Source: a virus
Virus record (IMG/VR): IMGVR_UViG_3300030101_003222
Coordinates: 1-21,898 of that record
Length of the DNA: 21,898 bases
Direction: 5' to 3' (one strand)
Below, one piece after another: positions 12,069 to 21,898 of the stretch. Position 1 is the first letter of the stretch. Each line of letters starts with the position of its first letter. Under the pieces are notes generated by a model. It made no database searches. It worked only from the letters and a program-made list of their open reading frames with translations, and was not told the origin of the DNA. A program made the position numbers and the translations under genes.

Positions 12069-12093
12069 GGGTACTAATACCCCCAGACCTCAA
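12057..12093. terminator. Hairpin between convergent operons, possible bidirectional terminator
   Basis: The inner stem GGGGTA/TACCCC (loop CTAA, 12068-12083) is extended by the outer arms TTGAGG (12057-12062) and CCTCAA (12088-12093) across a small internal loop. It covers the stops of both converging genes. A strong U-tract is missing on either side, so it may slow or block transcription without being a classical intrinsic terminator. Confidence 0.5.
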
Positions 12094-12862
12094 TTCTTGC
12101 ACTTAAAACAGCTTCATCTCGCCAAATCCAATCATCAGGGTTTGGAATCAAAGAATTTTTAACATCTTCGGCTGAATTAACAGTTTTTAGATAATAAGCC
12201 ATAGCAGTTATAATATGCTCACATAATTTCATGGCATAATGATAATCCGTAAGAGACATTTCATAAAAATCTGTACCTGTTTTTTTAGCTACAAGATACC
12301 ATAATTTTTGATTAGCATTTGTGCCTCTATGATAGATAGCTTGTTGCATGGCATGAGACATAGAGATACCGTTTGGTTTTCTCTTAGTGGTTTTCAAATC
12401 AATATAGAAATCTTCATTAGTATATTTATCTTCCATGTGAAAGTCAGTATAACCAATCAGAGGTATGCCTTTGATATCTAGTTCTACTTTTTTTTGATAA
12501 CCTATAAGATTCCATTTGAAAGCATGATCTCTAAACTTTTGAACACCTAAATTTAGCAAAGGCGATAAATATTCTTTTTCCTCTGCAGTTTTAGGGTCAT
12601 CAATTCTTGAGCAGTTTGCGTCAAACTCATCATGCATTTTTTTATCAGCTACTTCTAGATGCAATCCATTAAGAAACATATTTAAACCAGACTCAACTGC
12701 TTTTCCTCGTTCAGCAGCAGCACTACTAGCAAACTCATAACCGAATATCCTACGCAATGCCCACCTCTCACGATTAAAAGCGAACTCGTTTAAATGGCTA
12801 AATGACAGTGGCAATAATTTTTTTTTATCGCCACTATCAAACTTTTGAAAATGTTCTATCAT
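12074..12862 (-). CDS. PD-(D/E)XK nuclease superfamily protein (RecB/Cas4-like exonuclease)
   Basis: A 262-residue protein, the last gene of the minus-strand operon. The fold signature is visible in order: SFSHLNEFAF near residue 20, AAERGKAVE at 49-57 (the conserved Glu of motif I), GYTD with D140, IDLKTT with D155 and K157 (the D-x-K core), and HAMQQAIYH at 170-178 (the QxxxY motif). This set matches phage and RecB-type PD-(D/E)XK exonucleases, which degrade or process DNA ends in recombination or host DNA breakdown. No four-cysteine Fe-S cluster of true Cas4 is seen. The start overlaps the upstream stop by ATGA. Confidence 0.8.
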   Translation of the reverse strand: MIEHFQKFDSGDKKKLLPLSFSHLNEFAFNRERWALRRIFGYEFASSAAAERGKAVESGLNMFLNGLHLEVADKKMHDEFDANCSRIDDPKTAEEKEYLSPLLNLGVQKFRDHAFKWNLIGYQKKVELDIKGIPLIGYTDFHMEDKYTNEDFYIDLKTTKRKPNGISMSHAMQQAIYHRGTNANQKLWYLVAKKTGTDFYEMSLTDYHYAMKLCEHIITAMAYYLKTVNSAEDVKNSLIPNPDDWIWRDEAVLSARIEVWGY

Positions 12863-13110
12863 ATCAAGTCAATATATTCTTTTTGTTTTTCAACAATATT
12901 AGTTACTTTAACTTGTAAATGCATTAGATCATCACTGATTGCACCTTTACCAAACTTATGAAGATACATAGCAATAGCAATCCTCAAGTTTTCCATGACA
13001 TGCAAATCTTTTGTAGCATGAAATATAGCACCTTGTAATTGCTCTTCATGTTCATTGTGATATGCTTCTTGTTCTTCTGGTGTTAGTTCTTCTAATAAAC
13101 GATCAGACAT
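12859..13110 (-). CDS. Hypothetical small helical protein
   Basis: An 83-residue, acidic, helical protein (LLEELTPEEQEAYHNEHEEQL, then MHLQVKVTNIVEKQKEYIDL). It starts at an ATG overlapping the upstream stop (TAATG), with GGAGG eight bases before. It lies between the HTH protein and the PD-(D/E)XK nuclease and overlaps the nuclease start, so it may work with it. No family is recognised. Confidence 0.55.
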   Translation of the reverse strand: MSDRLLEELTPEEQEAYHNEHEEQLQGAIFHATKDLHVMENLRIAIAMYLHKFGKGAISDDLMHLQVKVTNIVEKQKEYIDLI

Positions 13111-13307
13111 TATTTTCCCTCCATTGAATATTGTGCGAAAGTCTTACCCTGTTTGGTAATATTTTCAGTTATTATATCATAACCCTCTTTTCTTAAATCT
13201 AAAATTCTAGCACTTAACCTAAAGCAACCGAACTTTTCAAGAGCATCTATGGGGGTTAGTTTTTTACCTTTGAGTAGGTAATTTAAGATTTGTTTATTCT
13301 GGCTCAT
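13110..13307 (-). CDS. Small helix-turn-helix protein
   Basis: A 65-residue protein that looks like a winged helix: NKQILNYLLKGKKLTPIDALEKFGCFRLSARILDLRKEGYDI with breaks, followed by a wing (TENITKQGKTFAQYSM). The pattern 'LTPxDAlxxfgxxRLsaRIxdLrkeGxxI' matches the small phage HTH_39-type family. These are presumed DNA-binding, perhaps regulating the operon or assisting replication. GGAGG lies seven bases before the ATG. Confidence 0.75.
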   Translation of the reverse strand: MSQNKQILNYLLKGKKLTPIDALEKFGCFRLSARILDLRKEGYDIITENITKQGKTFAQYSMEGK

Positions 13308-13318
13308 ACAACCTCCTT

Positions 13319-13675
13319 CTATAAGTGTTTTGCCAACTCCCTTTCGTTAACGACTTTAGTTCTTAAGTCTTCACGAAAGGTTTTAAAGGTTTCGTATCTA
13401 ATCTTAGCACGATTCCTTTCTTTAAGAACTTTCTCGTATCTATCGGTATAGTCCTTAAACCTTTTATCTGAATAAATGTGTGCATTTAATTCAGTAGTAT
13501 TCTTATACTTAATATTTTGACAGTAATAAAGGGTTAATTCTGATACTAACATTTTTTCCTCTTTTTTAAGGAGTTCTAATGCTGTATCGCTATCGCTATA
13601 TTCAAGACCTAGTATCTCTTGTTGATGAGATAATTGGCTAGGCTCAAACTCTAGTGAATATATATCAGTCGCCAT
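13319..13675 (-). CDS. Conserved-type phage helical protein, unknown function
   Basis: A 118-residue helical, charged protein. The C-terminal half (YTDRYEKVLKERNRAKIRYETFKTFREDLRTK, with breaks) looks like a long helical hairpin or coiled coil. The start overlaps the HNH gene's end by eleven bases, with GAGG upstream. Small proteins of this kind accompany recombination or nuclease genes in other phages; the specific role is unknown. Confidence 0.55.
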   Translation of the reverse strand: MATDIYSLEFEPSQLSHQQEILGLEYSDSDTALELLKKEEKMLVSELTLYYCQNIKYKNTTELNAHIYSDKRFKDYTDRYEKVLKERNRAKIRYETFKTFREDLRTKVVNERELAKHL

Positions 13676-13961
13676 TGTTTTCCTCGTACTCTTTGTTATC
13701 TATTTTTTCTTTCAATCTGATTCGCCATTCTTCGTTTATATCTTTGTGTTGATGTGCAATCGTATGACAGCTTCTGCATACAGGAAATAAATTATCAATC
13801 CTATTAAGGCGATTATTTTTTACTCCTCCCATTTTTTTTGAAATCAAGTGATGGATATCTACTGCTGGTTTTTGATAACATCCCCAACACATAGGGGTAT
13901 CTTGTTCGTGATACCCCCAGTATTTGCTAAAAAGTAGTTTATAGTTTTTCAAGGTTTTCAT
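13665..13961 (-). CDS. HNH endonuclease
   Basis: A 98-residue nuclease with a textbook HNH site: a first CxxC at C25/C28, the catalytic DIHHL (H37-H38), the linking N57 (RIDNLFPVC), a second CxxC at C62/C65 followed by H66, and H70. The two CxxC pairs bind a structural zinc, and the HH...N...H set binds the catalytic metal. Here it lies in the early operon rather than beside the terminase, where packaging-associated HNH proteins usually sit. It overlaps the SSB-like gene by 23 bases. Confidence 0.85.
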   Translation of the reverse strand: MKTLKNYKLLFSKYWGYHEQDTPMCWGCYQKPAVDIHHLISKKMGGVKNNRLNRIDNLFPVCRSCHTIAHQHKDINEEWRIRLKEKIDNKEYEENNGD

Positions 13962-14358
13962 TGAAAGACTTTACAGCATTTTTAGTAAGATCTGAAATAT
14001 CAGTTACTGCAAAATGCCCACTACCCATAGCACGACCAACTATGCCAGTCACAAAGATATCTCTTCTTTGCGTCACATCCTTACTGACAATAGGTCTAGA
14101 TGTAGTAGTGATTGCCGAACTACTACCATCTTGCGTGTGATCTGCAACAACCTCAATGTCTTTGACATTAGTATAGGGATTACCATTTGCAGATGTCTTT
14201 GTATTAACCACTGTGAAATTTATAGCATCGCCACTTTTAGGCATAGGGTTAAGCACTGTGCCTCGGCAGTATAATCTAGTACCGTCTATCAAATCTATTG
14301 AGTAGTTTGGTACTCCGTCTTTAGTATTGTCGAATATTTTTTCTATAACATTTGACAT
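13939..14358 (-). CDS. OB-fold / single-stranded DNA-binding-like protein
   Basis: A 139-residue protein. The N-terminal ~70 residues form alternating strands (YSIDLIDGTRLYCRG, GDAINFTVVNTKTSANGNPYTNVKDIEVV, with breaks) of an OB-fold kind. A Ser/Thr/Asp linker follows, then a conserved-looking DIFVTGIVGRAMGSGHF segment and a charged C-terminal helix. This layout fits a phage ssDNA-binding protein, but the acidic tail tip typical of bacterial SSB is not obvious. It is preceded by an (AAT)n tract and GGAGG, suggesting strong translation, which fits an SSB. Confidence 0.5.
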   Translation of the reverse strand: MSNVIEKIFDNTKDGVPNYSIDLIDGTRLYCRGTVLNPMPKSGDAINFTVVNTKTSANGNPYTNVKDIEVVADHTQDGSSSAITTTSRPIVSKDVTQRRDIFVTGIVGRAMGSGHFAVTDISDLTKNAVKSFNENLEKL

Positions 14359-14367
14359 ATTACCTCC

Positions 14368-14384
14368 TATTATTATTATTTATT
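14368..14384 (-). repeat. (AAT)n tract directly upstream of ribosome site, copy 3
   Basis: Reading on the minus strand, an AATAATAATAAT tract runs into AGGAGG and the start of the OB-fold protein. It is the third copy of the same arrangement in this operon and overlaps the upstream region near the lipoprotein stop. Confidence 0.6.
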
Positions 14385-14822
14385 AAGAACATTATAACCT
14401 CTACCCTCTAAACAATTATTAATTAAATCTTGTCTAGTAGTTAATTTGGGAGAGAGCCATAAAATCCTCCAACGAAAAGAATTATATACTATTTTGCTTT
14501 TATCGGCTACGATATTGGTATTATCTTTGACGATATCTTGGCATGTATATAAGTCATCATGATATCTGTTCATATCCCCATTGATATTAGCAGATGATTT
14601 GCCTCTACTGTCAACTATTGGTGCCTTGCTACAACCGAAAACGACCATAGCAAGACATATTAAAATAAACATTGTTAATACCTTGAAAAACATTTTGTAG
14701 TAAGTTTTTTGTTGAGATATCACATGTTTATATTCAATGACAGGTTTACGAGTTCTTAGACAGTACCCGACAATGCGGGTACTCATATAACCATAGGGAA
14801 AAAATTTATTTCTCTTTGGCAT
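14376..14822 (-). CDS. Lipoprotein, envelope-facing, bacterial-type
   Basis: The open frame allows 148 residues from 14822 (coupled to the upstream stop, TGATATG) or 105 residues from an internal ATG at 14693. The second gives a normal lipoprotein signal (MFFKVLTMFILICLAMVVFGC, lipobox VFGC, here described by its ends). The mature part has PIVDSRG, NRYHDDLYTCQD and a C-terminal NNCLEGRGYNVL. This is the pattern of a bacterial outer-membrane lipoprotein family that usually has a glycine zipper in the middle; here that is replaced by a charged stretch. It could act in superinfection exclusion, which is speculative. The true start is undecided. Confidence 0.6.
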   Translation of the reverse strand: MPKRNKFFPYGYMSTRIVGYCLRTRKPVIEYKHVISQQKTYYKMFFKVLTMFILICLAMVVFGCSKAPIVDSRGKSSANINGDMNRYHDDLYTCQDIVKDNTNIVADKSKIVYNSFRWRILWLSPKLTTRQDLINNCLEGRGYNVLNK

Positions 14823-14823
14823 A

Positions 14824-15144
14824 TCAACTCACTATTTTTAAGTGATCTTTTTTGACAGGTGCAGTCGAACCAAATGCCTTACGCAAGACTTTATCAAGTT
14901 CGTCTATACCTATCATCAAAAGTTTATCCATGAGTTCTTGTTTGCACTCACAATAAGTAGGTGCCTCAATAATCTCAAGATTATGCCTATTGATTAATTG
15001 TTTATCATCAATAGAACCAACCCATTTAGTACCAGACTCACCGTCCAGACCAATAGTTTTTTTTACTTTAATAATATCCACTTTGACAGTTCTGCCAACA
15101 AATGGAATGTAGTCAACATAATGACCATGCTTTTTAGTCTTCAT
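14824..15144 (-). CDS. Hypothetical early protein
   Basis: A 106-residue protein taken from the ATG at 15144 because GGAGG sits at the right distance before it; an ATG sixteen codons upstream lacks a ribosome site. The first part is strand-rich (HYVDYIPFVGRTVKVDIIKV, with breaks). The middle has TKWVGSIDDKQLINRHNLEII, like a small beta-barrel (SH3/KOW-style) edge. The end is helical (ELMDKLLMIGIDELDKVL). It overlaps the upstream gene by 11 bases. I do not recognise a family. Confidence 0.55.
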   Translation of the reverse strand: MKTKKHGHYVDYIPFVGRTVKVDIIKVKKTIGLDGESGTKWVGSIDDKQLINRHNLEIIEAPTYCECKQELMDKLLMIGIDELDKVLRKAFGSTAPVKKDHLKIVS

Positions 15145-15436
15145 TTTTAAGTGCCTCCAACTTTTTAGGTGTCCAATATTTATCTCTTTCAATGCCTAAA
15201 CCAAAAGCACCTTTATAAGAGGATAGTTCATCAATACTGACATAACCCAATTCTTTTTCAAATATTTCACATAACCCATAAGCAACATTAGTTTCTGGAT
15301 CAAGTTCAGATAGATACCAAGTGCCTTTGCCTGTTGGGTTAAATAGTTTAACATAAGCAAGGGAAGATTTACTTCCCTCGGCTTTCTTATGGTTTTTGAT
15401 AAGTTGCTCTCTTATCGCTTTAGTGAATAAGTTCAT
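15134..15436 (-). CDS. DUF2958 domain protein
   Basis: A 100-residue protein, start chosen at 15436, which has AGGAGG upstream. The series VKLFNPTGKGTWYLSELDPE, VAYGLCEIFEKELGYVSIDEL and GLGIERDKYW matches the DUF2958 family, known from phages, plasmids and mobile elements but with no established function. The length is close to the family norm. It overlaps the upstream gene by four bases. Confidence 0.8.
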   Translation of the reverse strand: MNLFTKAIREQLIKNHKKAEGSKSSLAYVKLFNPTGKGTWYLSELDPETNVAYGLCEIFEKELGYVSIDELSSYKGAFGLGIERDKYWTPKKLEALKNED

Positions 15437-15969
15437 TGTGCCTCCTTTTGATAATAACCATAAATACAACGCATACCTTGACGGTCTGGGTTATAAATAT
15501 CGTTAATGACTTTATCTACAACACAAGTTAAATGTCTTGATAAACTTAATATTGCAGTACCGTTAGGCACCTCATCTTTTCTAAGATGATACTTACAACC
15601 ACTGCCAATAGTCATAAGAGGCACCCATTTAAAACCAATATCTATAATATATTGATGATAAACTTGTTTGAAATTACCATTTCTAGGCGATGTTTGATTT
15701 CTTAGTTCCATTTGCCTTGATAATTTATTGTTATGGTCGTCGATATAATTTTGATTTAGATTAAACAAATCATCATAGACTGACTTATAATCAAAACCAC
15801 TTGCGATACTTATTGCTCTAACAACACAATCGCCAGACGTACCTTTGAAATATTTGGAACGACCTCCGTCATTATATTGGAAATCACATCCCCATATTCT
15901 TTTTTTGTAATCAATACCACCAGCTCTACCTAGATGATGATATATTTTACCTTTTTGTATTTTGGTCAT
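15433..15969 (-). CDS. Cysteine-peptidase-like phage protein
   Basis: A 178-residue protein, start chosen at 15969 because of GGAGG upstream. The segment GTSGDCVVRAISIASG with C48, followed much later by SRHLTCVVD with H146 and INDIYNPDRQ with D157/N160, is the order Cys-His-Asp/Asn of papain-like folds. Related phage proteins have the same GDCVxRAI and SRHLxxVxDGxIxDxxxPS pattern and no assigned function. It may cleave a host or phage protein, or an isopeptide-type bond. Catalysis is inferred from the motif order only. Confidence 0.6.
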   Translation of the reverse strand: MTKIQKGKIYHHLGRAGGIDYKKRIWGCDFQYNDGGRSKYFKGTSGDCVVRAISIASGFDYKSVYDDLFNLNQNYIDDHNNKLSRQMELRNQTSPRNGNFKQVYHQYIIDIGFKWVPLMTIGSGCKYHLRKDEVPNGTAILSLSRHLTCVVDKVINDIYNPDRQGMRCIYGYYQKEAQ

Positions 15970-16144
15970 TATTATTGCCTCCATTATTATTATTATTAAT
16001 TATTCTGCTACTCATAACTTGATTAGCATTATTATCAAAGACGGCACTACTACCGTCTAAGAAAACTATTTTAAAGTAATGAGTGACCTTACCATTTTCG
16101 ATGAGGTCAACTCTTTTTGAAGATTTGAAAGGTTTAGGTAACAT
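15947..16144 (-). CDS. Hypothetical small early protein with Asn-rich tail
   Basis: A 65-residue protein. The first ~45 residues have a strand pattern (VTHYFKIVFLDGSSAVFDN). The C-terminal NNNNNGGNNND is encoded by the (AAT)n tract and ribosome site of the downstream gene, so it is probably a by-product of that signal. The start overlaps the upstream stop (TAATG). Confidence 0.5.
   Translation of the reverse strand: MLPKPFKSSKRVDLIENGKVTHYFKIVFLDGSSAVFDNNANQVMSSRIINNNNNGGNNNDQNTKR
15984..16003 (-). repeat. (AAT)n tract directly upstream of ribosome site, copy 2
   Basis: Minus strand: TTAATAATAATAATAATGG joins the GGAGG of the cysteine-peptidase-like gene. The tract is inside the end of the upstream ORF and gives it an Asn run. 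Confidence 0.6.
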
Positions 16145-16308
16145 TATTGAGCCACCCTTAAATCATTTTCATCAATCCAAAAACTGCCACCTAAAAAAGC
16201 AACAAGATAATTTTGATCAATAGGATTAATTGATTTTATAACACCCATATAATACTTATCATTTAGATCGCAATAATATTGAACAGTTTGATTAACTTTA
16301 TATTTCAT
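16144..16308 (-). CDS. Small SH3-like hypothetical protein
   Basis: A 54-residue protein, start chosen at 16308, where it overlaps the upstream stop (TAATG) and follows GGGGG. The sequence reads like a small SH3/KOW-type barrel: KVNQTVQYYCD, KYYMGVIKSI, NYLVAFLGGSFWIDENDL. This is an inference from strand spacing, not a recognised family. Its 3' junction repeats the motif at its own start (GGCTCAATAATG). Confidence 0.5.
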   Translation of the reverse strand: MKYKVNQTVQYYCDLNDKYYMGVIKSINPIDQNYLVAFLGGSFWIDENDLRVAQ

Positions 16309-16574
16309 TATTGAGCCCCCAAATAAATAATACAACCTAAAGCAGAACCAAGTTTATTAACAAGCATTCTATTAGATTTTTTTAGATTTTGGACAGCAAT
16401 ATCAGCACCAACAGTTTCGAACTGAACGAAACCACTTTTATCAACATAAGATAATTGAACTTTGATTGCTTTGATAACAACACCGTAAGCAGTATTATAA
16501 TCGTATGAATTAACACCTTTAGTAAAAGTATATTTTCCAAAAGTGAAAGTTCTAGTTTGCACTTTATGAGCCAT
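16308..16574 (-). CDS. First gene of the minus-strand operon, hypothetical
   Basis: An 88-residue protein starting at 16574. The ribosome site GGAGG lies six bases upstream and the (AAT)n tract directly before it. An earlier in-frame ATG at 16607 would add a run of asparagines made of the tract itself, so it is rejected. The body is strand-rich (TRTFTFGKYTFTKG, VVIKAIKVQLSYVD, GFVQFETVGAD) with a helical end. As the first early gene with a strong ribosome site, it could be a host-takeover protein; the function is unknown. Confidence 0.55.
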   Translation of the reverse strand: MAHKVQTRTFTFGKYTFTKGVNSYDYNTAYGVVIKAIKVQLSYVDKSGFVQFETVGADIAVQNLKKSNRMLVNKLGSALGCIIYLGAQ

Positions 16575-16584
16575 TTGACCCTCC

Positions 16585-16604
16585 TTATTATTATTATTAT
16601 TAAT
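16585..16604 (-). repeat. (AAT)n tract directly upstream of ribosome site, copy 1
   Basis: Minus strand: ATTAATAATAATAATAATAA followed by GGAGG and the first gene of the operon. The similarity of the three copies (tract, then ribosome site, then ATG) suggests an AU-rich translation enhancer, a site that ribosomal protein S1 could bind. Confidence 0.6.
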
Positions 16605-16612
16605 CATAATAG

Positions 16613-17368: not shown

Positions 17369-18211
17369 ATGTTTATAGAAGAAAGTTCAAAACCTAAAGA
17401 TAAACTCAAAGCATGGTATTTATTTACCGAAGATTTTATCGCAGGAACTCAACATTTAACTAATCAAGAAATAGGAATTTATATTCGTTTGCTTTGTTGG
17501 AATTGGAATAAAAGATGTTCGGGTATACCAAATAACAAAGAAACTTATTATCGTATTGCAAGTGCATTTGTTGATCATGAAAAGTTTTCATGTGAAAAAG
17601 TTATTAAAGAAAATTTTGTATTAGTTAATGAACATTGGCAAAACGAAAGACAACTACAAGAATATTTATATATTACAAAAAGGATAGAGGCATCAAAAGA
17701 GAATGGTAAACTAGGTGGTCGTCCAAAAAAACCTAGCACAAACCCCCCTACCTCTACCCCTACCCCTACCATTAATAATAAATATAATAGAGATTTTGAG
17801 GATATATGGAATAGACTGTATAATAAACGAGGCAGTAAATATAGAGCATATGAGCAATATAAAATAGCAATAAAATTTCCTGATGTTGATTCAGATAGAT
17901 TAGTGATGGGTTATAATAAATTATGTTCAGCTACTGATGAAAAAAAGTTTGTGCCTCATTTTAGTAAATGGTTAAAAGATCAAAGGTGGGAAGAGTTTAT
18001 ACCAGAACCAACATCAAATTTAGGTGTAGTCAACCACGATGACACTAGATTACAAATGTTTGTTGATGCTATTAGAGATAAAAAAGTCACACGATTTGTT
18101 AAAGACTGGGCATTAAAACACAAAGATGTTATTGATAGAGGTATAAAACTAGGTAAAATAACAAAACAACAAGCCATTGAAGATTTAGAAATGGCTAGTG
18201 AATATAGGTAA
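17369..18211 (+). CDS. DUF1376-type replication initiator-like protein
   Basis: A 280-residue protein with GGAGG upstream. The N-terminal domain (about 10-75) has KAWYLFTEDFIAGTQHLTNQEIGIYIRLLCWNW with breaks, the DUF1376 pattern: a winged-helix domain of phage replication proteins. The spacer (about 108-132) is basic then Pro/Thr-rich (GRPKKPSTNPPTSTPTPT). The C-terminal part has FEDIWNRLYNKRGSKYRAYEQYKIAI and FVPHFSKWLKDQRWEEF, seen in phage initiators that load helicase. It probably starts replication. The TACCCC repeats in the spacer may be part of the origin. No polymerase or helicase is visible in the window. Confidence 0.78.
   Translation: MFIEESSKPKDKLKAWYLFTEDFIAGTQHLTNQEIGIYIRLLCWNWNKRCSGIPNNKETYYRIASAFVDHEKFSCEKVIKENFVLVNEHWQNERQLQEYLYITKRIEASKENGKLGGRPKKPSTNPPTSTPTPTINNKYNRDFEDIWNRLYNKRGSKYRAYEQYKIAIKFPDVDSDRLVMGYNKLCSATDEKKFVPHFSKWLKDQRWEEFIPEPTSNLGVVNHDDTRLQMFVDAIRDKKVTRFVKDWALKHKDVIDRGIKLGKITKQQAIEDLEMASEYR
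17743..17770. repeat. CCCCTA repeats (G-rich on the minus strand) in the replication-protein gene
   Basis: A C-rich tract of CCCCCCTA, CCTCTA, CCCCTA, CCCCTA, CC stands out in AT-rich DNA. On the minus strand it reads as G-tracts of two to six separated by TA, a G-quadruplex-type pattern. It sits in the spacer between the N- and C-terminal domains of the DUF1376-type protein, where lambda carries its origin in gene O. Confidence 0.55.
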
Positions 18212-18215
18212 TATT

Positions 18216-18824
18216 ATGCAAAATATAGAATTAGAAAAAATTATCCCTTACTCAAGAAACCCAAGACAAAATCAACATATTGATAAAGTTGCTGGTTCTA
18301 TCAAAGAGTTTGGATTTCAACAACCGATCGTTGTAGATATTGATAATGTGATAATTGTCGGACATACAAGATATTTAGCTGCAAAAAAACTTGGTATGAC
18401 ACAGGTTCCTGTTATTATCGCCGATAAATTATCAAAAAACCAAGTAAAAGCATATAGGATTGCTGACAATAGAGTTTCTGAAGAATCAACTTGGAATAAT
18501 GAATTACTTAATCTTGAGTTACTAGATTTGCAAAAACAAGAGTTTGATCTTGATAGTTTAGGATTTGAGCAAAACGAACTAAATAAAATTTTTAATCAAG
18601 ATGATCCATTGTTTGTATCGCCTGAACAATCTGGTATGGAAACTGACACAGATAATATTGAAGATTTTATACCATCACAAGTTAGAATGGTGCAATTATT
18701 TTTAAATTCTGAATCTGAACCAAAATTTAAAGAAATGATAGAGTTACTACAGAATAAATATAATACTAATAATTTAACTGACACCGTATATAATGCGATA
18801 AAAAATGAATACGATAGAGGTTAA
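18216..18824 (+). CDS. ParB/Srx-fold protein (ParB N-terminal-like)
   Basis: A 202-residue protein taken from the ATG at 18216 rather than a GTG six codons earlier. The N-terminal ~100 residues are a ParB-type domain: LEKIIPYSRNPRQN, VAGSIKEFGFQQPIVVD, the nucleotide-binding VGHTRYLAAKKLG (GHTR at 49-52, in place of GERR), and QVKAYRIADNRVSEESTW. The C-terminus is acidic then helical. The same N-terminal pattern is fused to, or next to, DNA methylases in other mobile elements. Here it overlaps the dioxygenase gene by 20 bases, linking it to DNA modification rather than chromosome partition. Confidence 0.85.
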   Translation: MQNIELEKIIPYSRNPRQNQHIDKVAGSIKEFGFQQPIVVDIDNVIIVGHTRYLAAKKLGMTQVPVIIADKLSKNQVKAYRIADNRVSEESTWNNELLNLELLDLQKQEFDLDSLGFEQNELNKIFNQDDPLFVSPEQSGMETDTDNIEDFIPSQVRMVQLFLNSESEPKFKEMIELLQNKYNTNNLTDTVYNAIKNEYDRG

Positions 18825-19719
18825 GCCAATACTAAATGATCAAGAAATCAAAGATTTACATGGTAAATTTATTGATGAAACATTTTTAAAATATCCAGTT
18901 ATTAATACTGATACAATAGTTAAAAATGAAAAAGGCGAGACATTACTTGTATTTTTAAAAAATGTAATACCAAATAATATTGCTTTTGAAGCATATAAAG
19001 TTTTTAGAAAAGCAACAGCAGTATCAAATAATCGTGGTCAAGCAGCTGGTCCACTGCCACCAGAACTTAAAACAGGCGATAAAATAGACGGATTAACAGT
19101 AGGTAAAGTAAGAGGTAATCGTTTTTGGCCATTAAGGAAAGACGGTACATTATCTAATAGTCCAAAGGCAAGGGCAGTTTATAGTTCAATCGTTGGATAT
19201 GCTGATAGATATTCAAGGATACCATATTGTAGGACTACAGAGTTCACACGAAAATATTTTGAAGAATATAAAAAAACTTTACCTTATGTAAAATATATTG
19301 GAGATTTATTTAAAAGATACATTCCAGAAAGATATGAACCACAAAAAAAAGCATGGTATAACACTCATGAAGATTTTAAAATACCAGAAACCCCATTCAC
19401 AACGATTACAGTAAACAAAAATTTTAGGACTGCTTGTCATTATGATGCTGGCGATTTAAAAGAGGGTTTCGGTAATCTAGGAGTTTTGCAAGCTGGCGAT
19501 TATAAAGGTGCATATACTATAATACCGAAATATGGTGTTGGTGTTGATGTTCGTAGTTGTGATTTAGCATTTTTTGATGTTCATGAACTGCATGGTAATA
19601 CAGAAATAAAACCTATCGGCAATGCAGAAAGAATCTCAATAGTGGCTTATTTTAGGGAAAAAATGACAGAATGTGGTAGTGCAAGTCAAGAATTAGAAAG
19701 GGTAAAATATGGAGGATAA
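18805..19719 (+). CDS. TET/JBP-family 2-oxoglutarate/Fe(II) dioxygenase
   Basis: A 304-residue protein. The C-terminal double-stranded beta-helix has the full TET/JBP signature: TITVNKNFRTACHYDAGDL with the Fe ligands H212 and D214, GFGNLGVLQAGDYKGAYTIIP, GVDVRSCDLAFFDVHELHGNT with the second His at 263, and ERISIVAYFREKM with R276 for 2-oxoglutarate. The N-terminal half has an FRKATAVSNNRGQAAG stretch and an RFWPLRKDG stretch, seen in JBP-like proteins. The family oxidises the methyl of thymine or 5-methylcytosine in DNA. It overlaps the ParB-like and methyltransferase genes. The substrate (T or 5mC) cannot be decided by eye. Confidence 0.9.
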   Translation: MNTIEVKPILNDQEIKDLHGKFIDETFLKYPVINTDTIVKNEKGETLLVFLKNVIPNNIAFEAYKVFRKATAVSNNRGQAAGPLPPELKTGDKIDGLTVGKVRGNRFWPLRKDGTLSNSPKARAVYSSIVGYADRYSRIPYCRTTEFTRKYFEEYKKTLPYVKYIGDLFKRYIPERYEPQKKAWYNTHEDFKIPETPFTTITVNKNFRTACHYDAGDLKEGFGNLGVLQAGDYKGAYTIIPKYGVGVDVRSCDLAFFDVHELHGNTEIKPIGNAERISIVAYFREKMTECGSASQELERVKYGG

Positions 19720-20311
19720 ATTTACAAACATATATGAAAAAAATATATGGGGCAAAGGTTCAGGAGCTGGTAGTTCTTTCAATTACAACAAAAAATATAT
19801 TTTGTTTTTACAAGAATTTTTTTTAAAAAATAATATAAAATCCATCTTAGATGTTGGGTGTGGTGATTGGCAATTTAGTCAATTTGTAAATTTTGATGGT
19901 ATAAAATATAAAGGGATAGATGTTGTTTCCTCAGTCATTGATGGAAATGCTAAATTTGCAAATGAAAATATAGATTTTATTTGTGGTGATATCAGTGATT
20001 TTAATCAATTAAAACCATACACAAATGTTGATTTGATTCTTATCAAAGATGTTTTACAACATTGGCATGACCAGGAGGTTGATGTTTTTTTAAATAATAT
20101 ATCAAATACAAATGCAAAAAATATTTTAATTACAAGTGCTTATAAACATTTTAGAGATAAAAATAAAAGTCTTTACCCAAGAAATATAGATAATAAATAT
20201 TCATTTGCACCACTTGATTTGATGCATAGTAAATACAATCATTTTAATTTTAAAAAGGTTTTTAAATACAAATTTAAAGAAGTTATTTTGTATCAAAACA
20301 AAACACAATGA
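19709..20311 (+). CDS. Class I SAM-dependent methyltransferase in the DNA-modification operon
   Basis: A 200-residue enzyme overlapping the dioxygenase by 11 bases. Motif I is ILDVGCGDWQFSQF (D48-VGCGDW), then KYKGIDVVSSVI (motif II region), FICGDISDF and a motif IV/V region with LILIKDVLQHWHD. There is no PCQ or DPPY motif, so it is not a standard DNA C5 or N6/N4 base methyltransferase. The class (WGKGSGAGSS before the core) is one seen with sugar and natural-product modifications. It probably methylates the hydroxymethyl or sugar group of the modified base. This is inferred from context. Confidence 0.75.
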   Translation: MEDKFTNIYEKNIWGKGSGAGSSFNYNKKYILFLQEFFLKNNIKSILDVGCGDWQFSQFVNFDGIKYKGIDVVSSVIDGNAKFANENIDFICGDISDFNQLKPYTNVDLILIKDVLQHWHDQEVDVFLNNISNTNAKNILITSAYKHFRDKNKSLYPRNIDNKYSFAPLDLMHSKYNHFNFKKVFKYKFKEVILYQNKTQ

Positions 20312-21078
20312 ATTTTAGAATAGCCATACCCTCAATATCAAGAGCTGATACTATCACAAAAAAAACATTAAATTATTTGAAACAAACAGATGTTGACATG
20401 GCAAAAGTCGATATTTTTTTAAGCAATCCAAACGAAGAACAGGCATATAGAGAAAATTTACAAGATTATCCTGTGAATATAATAATAAGCAATACAAAAC
20501 ATGTGAACACTCAACGCAATTTTATAGTTAATTATTATAAAGAAGATGAACTTATTTTAGGTATAGATGACGATATAGACATGGTGGCTATGAAAGTTGA
20601 TGACAAAAATACAACACAATTAAACAGTTTAGTAGATTTTGTTGAACAAGCATTCACAATATCACTTGATAGAAAGATAGATATGTGGGGAGTTAATCCT
20701 GTTATAAATCCTTATTTTATGAAAAACAATGTAACATTTAACCTAAAATATATTGTAGCTTGTTTTTATGGTTGGCGAAATAATCATGAAAAAAAAGCAT
20801 ATGTTTCAACAAATCCAGAGTATGGTAAAGAAGATTTTGAAAGATCAATAAGATATTATATTGCTGATGGTGGTGTAACTAGATTTAATTATGTAGCACC
20901 CAAAACAAAATATTATTCAGAAAAAGGTGGCATACAAAATTATAGAACTGTTGAATATGAAGAAACAGCAGTACAATGGTTATTAAAAACTTTTCCAATG
21001 TTTTGTAAACGCAATACAAAATCAAAAGGTAAGTATCCAGAGGTAAGGTTGATTGACCAAAGGAGGAAAAAAAGATAA
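20308..21078 (+). CDS. TAGT-like glycosyltransferase (TET/JBP-associated)
   Basis: A 256-residue GT-A-type protein overlapping the methyltransferase stop by ATGA. The N-terminus RIAIPSISRADTITKKTLNYL is a nucleotide-sugar-binding start. It is followed by VNTQRNFIVNYY and the metal site LGIDDDIDM (D87-D89). The second half has KEDFERSIRYYIADGG, as in acceptor-loop regions, and ETAVQWLLKTFP. The pattern matches TET/JBP-associated glycosyltransferases of phages, related to the base-J glucosyltransferase of kinetoplastids. The acceptor would be the 5-hydroxymethyl pyrimidine made by the upstream dioxygenase. Confidence 0.8.
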   Translation: MNFRIAIPSISRADTITKKTLNYLKQTDVDMAKVDIFLSNPNEEQAYRENLQDYPVNIIISNTKHVNTQRNFIVNYYKEDELILGIDDDIDMVAMKVDDKNTTQLNSLVDFVEQAFTISLDRKIDMWGVNPVINPYFMKNNVTFNLKYIVACFYGWRNNHEKKAYVSTNPEYGKEDFERSIRYYIADGGVTRFNYVAPKTKYYSEKGGIQNYRTVEYEETAVQWLLKTFPMFCKRNTKSKGKYPEVRLIDQRRKKR

Positions 21079-21129
21079 AAAAGTCAAAATTAAGTTAAAT
21101 TACCCATAACTCAGGGGAAAGAGGATTAA

Positions 21130-21462
21130 ATGACAGAGAAAAAAAAGGTAGGCAGACCTAAGAAAGAACTGCCATATACCCTAGAAGATATAGAAAAACT
21201 AGCAGCAATGCAGTGTACTCGTGAAGAGATTGCAAACTTTTGTGGTGTATCAGTAAGCACACTAAAGCGTAATTTTGACCCCCCTATAAAAAAGGGATGG
21301 GATATGGGCAAAAGGTCATTACGAAGAGCTATGTTTGATAAAGCTATGCGAGGTAATACGACAATGTTGATATGGCTTTCTAAAAATTATCTAGGTATGA
21401 AAGATAAGGTTGAAACATCTGAAGAATCAGAACCATTGCCTTGGAATACTGACCTTGTTTAA
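21130..21462 (+). CDS. terS: Terminase small subunit
   Basis: A 110-residue protein with GAGG upstream. It begins with a basic AT-hook-like stretch (KKKVGRPKKE), followed by a helix-turn-helix (TREEIANFCGVSVSTLKRNF, about 24-43). The C-terminal GNTTMLIWLSKNYLGMKDK is the standard small-terminase end, followed by an acidic tail. The stop overlaps the TerL start (TAATG). TerS recognises the packaging site on the phage DNA and recruits TerL. The 50-base gap before it has no assignable promoter. Confidence 0.88.
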   Translation: MTEKKKVGRPKKELPYTLEDIEKLAAMQCTREEIANFCGVSVSTLKRNFDPPIKKGWDMGKRSLRRAMFDKAMRGNTTMLIWLSKNYLGMKDKVETSEESEPLPWNTDLV

Positions 21463-21898
21463 TGCCACTAACTAAACCTCAAGCAGAGGTAATAAATAAT
21501 CCCTCTCGCTTTAGGATATTAATTACAGGTAGAAGATTTGGTAAAACTTTTCTAGCAATCCATGAACTTGCTAGATTTGCAAGGTTTCCTAATAGAAAAG
21601 TTTGGTATGTTGCACCTACTTATAGACAGGCAAAAGCAATATGTTGGCAAGAATTAGTACAAAGATTGCGTAAGCATAATTGGTTATCAGAAGTAAATAA
21701 CAGTGATTTGACTGTAACATTGCGTAACAATTCAAAAATATCGCTTCGTGGTGCAGATAATGAAAATAGCTTGCGTGGTATAGGTTTAGATTTCTTGGTC
21801 ATGGACGAGTTTGCTGACATAAGTCCTGTTGCTTGGTATGAAGTATTGAGACCTACTCTCAGTGATACACAGGGGCATGCTTTATTTTGTGGCACTCC
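21462..21898 (+). CDS. terL: Terminase large subunit, N-terminal part (3' truncated)
   Basis: 145 complete codons of an ATPase that pumps DNA into the procapsid; the frame is open to the end of the window. The Walker A is GRRFGKT (in ILITGRRFGKTFLA), the adenine-side helix WYVAPTYRQAK follows, and Walker B with the catalytic Glu is LDFLVMDEFAD. The SLRGIGLD segment before Walker B is also typical. The nuclease domain lies outside the window. The start overlaps the TerS stop. Confidence 0.95.
   Translation, partial: MPLTKPQAEVINNPSRFRILITGRRFGKTFLAIHELARFARFPNRKVWYVAPTYRQAKAICWQELVQRLRKHNWLSEVNNSDLTVTLRNNSKISLRGADNENSLRGIGLDFLVMDEFADISPVAWYEVLRPTLSDTQGHALFCGT

Follow-up and report, generated by a model that had tools for sequence, protein, structure and literature searches.

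The locus discussed here raises the question of whether a phage uses a compact run of four genes to modify its own DNA and, if so, at which base. The genes, coding for a ParB_N-domain protein, a TET/JBP Fe(II)/2-oxoglutarate dioxygenase (TET), a small class I S-adenosylmethionine (SAM) methyltransferase and a TET-associated glycosyltransferase (TAGT), lie head to tail on the plus strand, at positions 18216-21078, of a 21.9 kb viral fragment (21,898 nt of IMG/VR record IMGVR_UViG_3300030101_003222; this whole stretch is referred to as the window, and about 11.2 kb of the genome is missing from it). The source is a marine phage, and the cassette is probably a working DNA hypermodification set. 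Our overall explanation, which we regard as moderately probable, is that the phage's own DNA is the target of the operon, by way of thymine hydroxylation, glycosylation, and O-methylation of the sugar. The same arrangement, in which ParB and TET are followed by a variable slot and then by the small (TerS) and large (TerL) terminase subunits, recurs in dozens of contigs from several host groups, and is no accident.

In the pathway that we propose, modification would take place while the DNA is replicated or afterwards. The ParB_N protein may bind or load on phage DNA and help direct the enzymes; the dioxygenase would hydroxylate a pyrimidine 5-methyl group in DNA, most likely converting thymine to 5-hydroxymethyluracil (5hmU); TAGT would move a hexose-type sugar onto that hydroxymethyl group, and the small methyltransferase would then O-methylate the sugar. 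The product, an O-methylglycosyl-5-hydroxymethyluracil, would be a base-J-like mark protecting the DNA from host nucleases. These steps do not carry equal weight: hydroxylation of the 5-methyl of a DNA pyrimidine is very likely given the family and predicted fold of the enzyme, sugar transfer to the resulting hydroxymethyl group is likely, and O-methylation of the sugar is somewhat probable.

The cassette proteins

Pfam calls for all four cassette genes exceed the curated cut-offs. In the case of the dioxygenase, the Tet_JBP profile scores 86.3 bits against a cut-off of 34.9, and the predicted Fe(II) and 2-oxoglutarate ligands, H212 (19438-19440), D214 (19444-19446), H263 (19591-19593) and R276 (19630-19632), are invariant across 83 members of its clade. 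A clade profile alignment places them on the HxD...H...R metal and 2-oxoglutarate ligands of human TET2, so that the complete ligand set claimed by the initial annotation is borne out. A single-sequence phmmer search with the dioxygenase against the PDB gave no real match, but the clade profile did match. An AlphaFold2 model (mean predicted local distance difference test score, pLDDT, of 86) found its best PDB matches with Foldseek in NgTet1, CcTet, TET2 and CMD1, the top one being NgTet1 (4lt5, E 5.5e-11, template modelling score 0.56-0.63). Related TETs can be found under misleading names, namely 'DnaJ chaperone / SNF2 DNA repair protein' or 'queuine tRNA-ribosyltransferase' (gp18 of Pelagibacter phage HTVC112P, contig L081 7599-8507; gp2 of actinophage Acadian, L101 813-1691).

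TAGT scores 46.9 bits against its cut-off of 27.5, and its DDD motif (residues 87-89, 20566-20574) is invariant in 14/14 TAGTs at identities as low as 19%, those of Acadian and of Arthrobacter phage Altadena among them. Although a TAGT profile found no match among PDB sequences, the model (pLDDT 89) has a GT-A fold, with TarP and TarS as Foldseek matches, and the metal site first proposed for this motif gains support from both observations. The small methyltransferase (METHYLTRANSFERASE) yields weak NCBIfam and PDB matches, all to small-molecule methyltransferases, and no match to DNA base-methyltransferase families in the Pfam, NCBIfam and PDB comparisons, in agreement with its earlier description as a non-DNA-type enzyme.

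The ParB_N profile scores 36.4 bits against a cut-off of 26.3. Translation would begin, as first stated, at ATG 18216, with an in-frame GTG at 18198 also possible. Residues 49-55, GHTRYLA (18360-18380), fit the ParB nucleotide motif GxxRxxA in alignment, and among the closest phage relatives of this protein are the N-terminal portions of fusions between ParB and a methyltransferase (tblastn matches to 'DNA modification methylase').

Consecutive cassette genes overlap by 20, 11 and 4 bases, and the gapless four-gene order given by the initial annotation holds (Table 1). Elsewhere in the window, a minus-strand gene block (12074-16607) that includes a PD-(D/E)XK nuclease (12074-12862) runs opposite to the genes for replication and those of the cassette, and the GC skew flips there.

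Table 1. Positions of the cassette genes and their neighbours in the window
Feature	Coordinates	Strand	Matches and remarks
DUF1376 / primosomal-like replication gene	17369..18211	+	Pfam PF07120 9.2e-11, phrog_9327; upstream context, outside pathway
ParB_N-domain protein, 202 aa	18216..18824	+	Pfam PF02195 5.5e-9; phrog_620, phrog_498
TET/JBP Fe(II)/2-oxoglutarate dioxygenase, 304 aa	18805..19719	+	Pfam PF12851 1.7e-24
Small class I SAM methyltransferase, 200 aa	19709..20311	+	Pfam Methyltransf_25 1.9e-7, Methyltransf_11; phrog_3382
TAGT (TET-associated glycosyltransferase), 256 aa	20308..21078	+	Pfam PF20691 4e-12
Short spacer, slot to terminase	21079..21129	+	86-100% identical in relatives, including phages with different slots
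Terminase small subunit	21130..21462	+	phrog_309 1.9e-11; fixed gene downstream of slot
Terminase large subunit, cut at window end	21462..21896	+	Terminase_6N 7.7e-8; phrog_2 5.9e-26

Thymine or cytosine

Oxidation of cytosine by a TET would call for a 5-methylcytosine (5mC) source, and the C5-cytosine methyltransferase (C5-MTase) profile PF00145 was not found in the window, in 45 related records (HTVC112P and the records G006 and G012 among them), or in the complete genomes of 11 cultured TET phages (HTVC112P, P12024L, Cr30, C48C1, DLP_6, S-CBWM1, Acadian, Lilmac1015, Altadena, Tonitrus and Prince); phage Melnitz, the positive control, was matched at 2.2e-56. The initial annotation had seen no such gene and had proposed a search of the rest of the genome. 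With the colinear relative G006 (69-84% DNA identity over aligned blocks) as a stand-in, the missing stretch of about 11.2 kb reads as terminase, portal, scaffold, capsid and tail-type genes only, judged by their order relative to HTVC112P, and PF00145 has no match anywhere in G006. Conversely, in a separate Melnitz-type TET clade (contigs L120-L190) a C5-MTase adjoins TET in 62/62 of the loci whose upstream sequence extends to 600 bases or more. A P-loop kinase often follows in that clade, which makes it a candidate for a 5-hydroxymethylcytosine (5hmC)-phosphate pathway.

The second line of evidence comes from the company that ParB-TET pairs keep. ADDT, also known as aGPT-Pplase or alkylamine transferase, has been placed in thymidine hypermodification (PMC11955845, PMC6449724), and together with Ploopntkinase3 it accompanies ParB-TET in Rhodococcus phage Tonitrus, in Mycobacterium phage Prince and in contig L192, with the kinase present in Acadian as well; the authors who described Tonitrus call its set a thymidine hypermodification system (PMC11955845). 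Caulobacter phage Cr30, whose TET belongs to the same clade as that of the window, has ADDT about 2 kb from TET. Also counted for thymine is contig L116, in which a TAGT 66% identical to that of the window is paired with an actinophage-type TET. As for the Acadian host, M. smegmatis, methylome work cited in PMC4938668 finds no cytosine methylation, with older reports in conflict. Because a C5-MTase is absent and thymidine-hypermodification enzymes occur in ParB-TET slots, oxidation of thymine followed by glycosylation is favoured, and on these gene contents we judge thymine the probable base.

Neither a 5hmU DNA kinase nor an amino acid:DNA transferase was found in the window, G006, G012 or HTVC112P, and a thymidylate-synthase-type hydroxymethylase (PF00303) was absent from the 13 records tested except Cr30, the window and its close relatives being without it. 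The Cr30 block itself (L084 4410-9573) holds TET, a dATP/dGTP diphosphohydrolase, ADDT and a weak TAGT-like gene, and Cr30 DNA is probably hypermodified.

Several observations weigh against thymine. The predicted base contacts of the dioxygenase are D217 (19453-19455), Y282 (19648-19650) and R284 (19654-19656), of which D217 aligns with TET2 N1387, NgTet1 D234 and CMD1 D350, and R284 with CcTet R393. The three residues aligned with D217 bond N4 of 5mC, and CcTet R393 contacts its O2 (PMC11040006). The D217 equivalent is also an invariant D in the C5-MTase-coupled clade, and actinophage TETs have N. Furthermore, the host may supply 5mC to this phage, and the thymidylate synthase homologue of Cr30 could provide 5-hydroxymethyldeoxyuridine (5hmdU) without TET. 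A scan of genome contigs for a host gave only 4 loci, with no Pelagibacter among them.

Since D217 and R284 are contacts of 5mC-type enzymes, a route through cytosine has to be weighed, in which 5mC supplied by the host or by a methyltransferase that escaped recognition would be oxidised by TET to 5hmC and then glycosylated, as in phages with a C5-MTase, a TET and a glycosyltransferase. Besides the 5mC-type contacts, shared at position 217 by the Melnitz-type clade with its adjacent C5-MTase, such a route has in its favour that cytosine activity of a set of this kind was shown with a C5-MTase, leading to glycosylated cytosine (Burke 2021, as cited in PMC12730594). However, the complete cultured TET phages and the near-complete close relatives have no PF00145, reliance on host 5mC would be unusual because other TETs keep a C5-MTase adjacent, and the thymidine-pathway enzymes in ParB-TET slots speak for a different base; we therefore consider the cytosine route rather unlikely. 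Neither of two more direct arguments can decide the matter. The kinase loses weight as proof of 5hmU because Melnitz phages, which have a C5-MTase, also carry a kinase beside TET, and the base-contact residues lose weight as proof of cytosine since ADDT lies near TET in Cr30, whose D/R pair is the same. The thymine-based, base-J-like route that had been suspected at the outset is thus strengthened by the lack of a C5-MTase and by the thymidine enzymes in ParB-TET operons, even though the D217/R284 pocket resembles the 5mC type.

The exchangeable slot before the terminase

Among IMG/VR relatives, ParB and TET are constant and TerS and TerL come next, as they do directly downstream of the window cassette, and the genes in between vary. 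Slots with glycosyltransferases hold the window-type TAGT by itself, another TAGT (43-45% identical) or a third TAGT; others combine a methyltransferase with TAGT or with another glycosyltransferase-like gene, or contain an FkbM methyltransferase, either by itself or ahead of TAGT; still others encode a P-loop kinase, an unclassified protein of 323 aa together with a protein of 152 aa, or a glutamine amidotransferase with an acetyltransferase. On a tree of 38 TETs, the 11 slot states require at least 14 changes. In L001 and L030, the TET DNA is 94-95% and the TerS DNA 96-99% identical to the window, yet the slots differ, and across relatives that carry other slots the TerS DNA is 85-99% identical; in sequence alignment, the spacer after TAGT is the downstream border of the slot. 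What lies between TET and terminase is exchanged among close relatives, the last one or two enzymes of the system being interchangeable. With the final steps housed in a slot of this kind, the outer decoration would be quick to change from one close relative to the next, as an arms race would lead one to expect.

Exchange also reaches beyond the slot. The order in L116 (4125-6678) is ParB-TAGT-TET-TerS, with a TAGT 66% identical to that of the window and an actinophage-type TET, and the same order and pairing are seen in L119 (3-1474), a contig that begins inside its close TAGT; since a close TAGT is found here with an actinophage-type TET, glycosyltransferase and dioxygenase exchange independently. 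The cultured actinophages themselves were reached through glycosyltransferase matches. Acadian has ParB, TET, TAGT, a PIG-L deacetylase and a kinase, followed by the large terminase subunit, and Altadena has ParB, a 'Tet-like J-binding protein', a glycosyltransferase and a deacetylase; the dioxygenase of Altadena has matches in 84 phage records. The Acadian kinase (gp5, L101 3022-3588) is a P-loop kinase mislabelled 'terminase small subunit', and PHROG families 6059 and 800 share these misleading names.

In favour of a sugar decoration we counted the TAGTs, the other glycosyltransferases and the TAGT plus PIG-L pairs of Acadian and Altadena in slots, as well as a nucleotidyltransferase (S-CBWM1) and a UDP-galactopyranose mutase (C48C1) near TET. 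In S-CBWM1 (L096 4810-7524), TET is followed by TAGT, a HAD-type phosphatase, the nucleotidyltransferase and an APH-like kinase, possibly a sugar-donor pathway. The mutase of C48C1 (L085 7249-8259; PF03275, 5.6e-52) lies two genes after TET and suggests galactofuranose on DNA. A class II glutamine amidotransferase and a GNAT acetyltransferase adjoin TET in L027 (1946-3228) and L046 (7445-9532), as would befit amidation- or acylation-type tailoring.

With regard to the small methyltransferase, its family is rare in IMG/VR, with 3 relatives, and a glycosyltransferase gene comes directly after it in 4/4 loci (the window, L002, L104 and L105), three kinds of glycosyltransferase being represented. 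In G006, a relative of 31.9 kb, TET is followed immediately by TAGT, and against it the methyltransferase gene (19710-20306) is a precise insertion, and a different methyltransferase, FkbM, precedes TAGT in L030 and L110. This gene order fits O-methylation of the transferred sugar, which would parallel the deacetylase after TAGT in actinophages. On the other side, the acceptor is inferred solely from gene order, and the pathway might operate on DNA with the small methyltransferase acting directly on the hydroxymethyl group, or on another target altogether. FkbM is in fact the sole slot gene in six contigs (L012, L013, L014, L028, L059, and L081, that is HTVC112P), and no TAGT was found in HTVC112P or G012. 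These FkbM-only slots suggest a 5-methoxymethyl pyrimidine in the phages concerned and mean that TET can be followed by a methyltransferase where no glycosyltransferase is seen. FkbM is, however, a different family, and the window-type enzyme never occurs in these loci without a glycosyltransferase after it, so we hold methylation of a non-sugar target in the window to be unlikely.

That the cassette leaves virion DNA unmodified, with the glycosyltransferase and methyltransferase acting on another molecule and TET serving demethylation or RNA, is very improbable: the GT-A matches are wall teichoic acid transferases, but TET is the constant partner over unrelated slots, TAGT owes its name to its association with TET, ParB relatives are fused to DNA methyltransferases, and the slots include ADDT, a DNA-acting family. 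The pathway put forward by the initial annotation (hydroxylation, glycosylation and possible methylation) is supported by families, folds and conserved context, with the choice of base leaning to thymine only to the degree given above.

Known systems and implications

By sequence, the enzymes of the cassette are members of known families, and Iyer et al. (2013; cited in PMC6449724) reportedly predicted TET-glycosyltransferase clusters in phages. The nearest known arrangements are the actinophage operons of Acadian and of Arthrobacter phages Altadena and Lilmac1015, which have the same ParB, TET and TAGT order and no C5-MTase, and which in Acadian lie directly before the terminase region, as in the window. 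They differ, however, in carrying a PIG-L deacetylase instead of a methyltransferase, and their TETs are of another clade, with N at position 217 and L or I at 284. HTVC112P (gp17-gp19) likewise has ParB, a TET with 60.5% identity and one tailoring gene before the packaging genes, and no C5-MTase, but this tailoring gene is the FkbM methyltransferase alone, with no TAGT.

The thymidine hypermodification phages (M6, ViI and phiW-14, and the Tonitrus type with TET) would share thymine or 5hmU as the base, and Tonitrus, like Prince, also shares the ParB-TET core (PMC11955845); these systems rely on a 5hmU kinase and an amino-acid:DNA transferase rather than on a glycosyltransferase and a methyltransferase. 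In M6, ViI and phiW-14, 5hmdU is thought to form before replication (PMC6449724). The cytosine systems (Burke 2021; the Melnitz type, where a kinase stands beside TET) have the same TET hydroxylation followed by tailoring, but carry their own C5-MTase, which the window cassette lacks. In kinetoplastid base J, a TET/JBP-family thymidine hydroxylase and a glycosyltransferase would act alike, the likeness being one of predicted pathway; the ParB partner, the possible O-methylation and the TAGT family of the glycosyltransferase set the window cassette apart.

As for the suggestion that the four-gene set may be uncharacterised, the cassette is one filling of a widespread ParB-TET slot, and ParB-TET-TAGT is present and partly annotated in cultured phages; what stands is the methyltransferase-glycosyltransferase pairing, which we did not find described. 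Neither this pairing nor a C5-MTase-free ParB-TET class with an exchangeable slot by the terminase (Pelagibacter-type) was found in the open papers searched, which is weak evidence of novelty as subscription journals were mostly not covered.

Our broadest proposal, which we advance tentatively and with some doubt, is that phages independently run a base-J-like pathway made of a ParB-guided thymine TET, a TAGT and a sugar-capping methyltransferase, housed in a modular slot beside the terminase, with the decorating enzymes traded among phages that are otherwise nearly identical. If this is true, phages would have a way to turn thymine into glycosylated 5hmU after replication and without a special nucleotide pool, as a counterpart to the base J of trypanosomes, and phage TETs would split by context into two classes, one C5-MTase-coupled and the other ParB-coupled. 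Cultured phages suited to testing these ideas are at hand in HTVC112P, Acadian, Altadena and Tonitrus, and the swap slot would offer a stock of tailoring enzymes that act on DNA, of sugar, methyl, amino and kinase types, for studies of chemistry and nuclease evasion.

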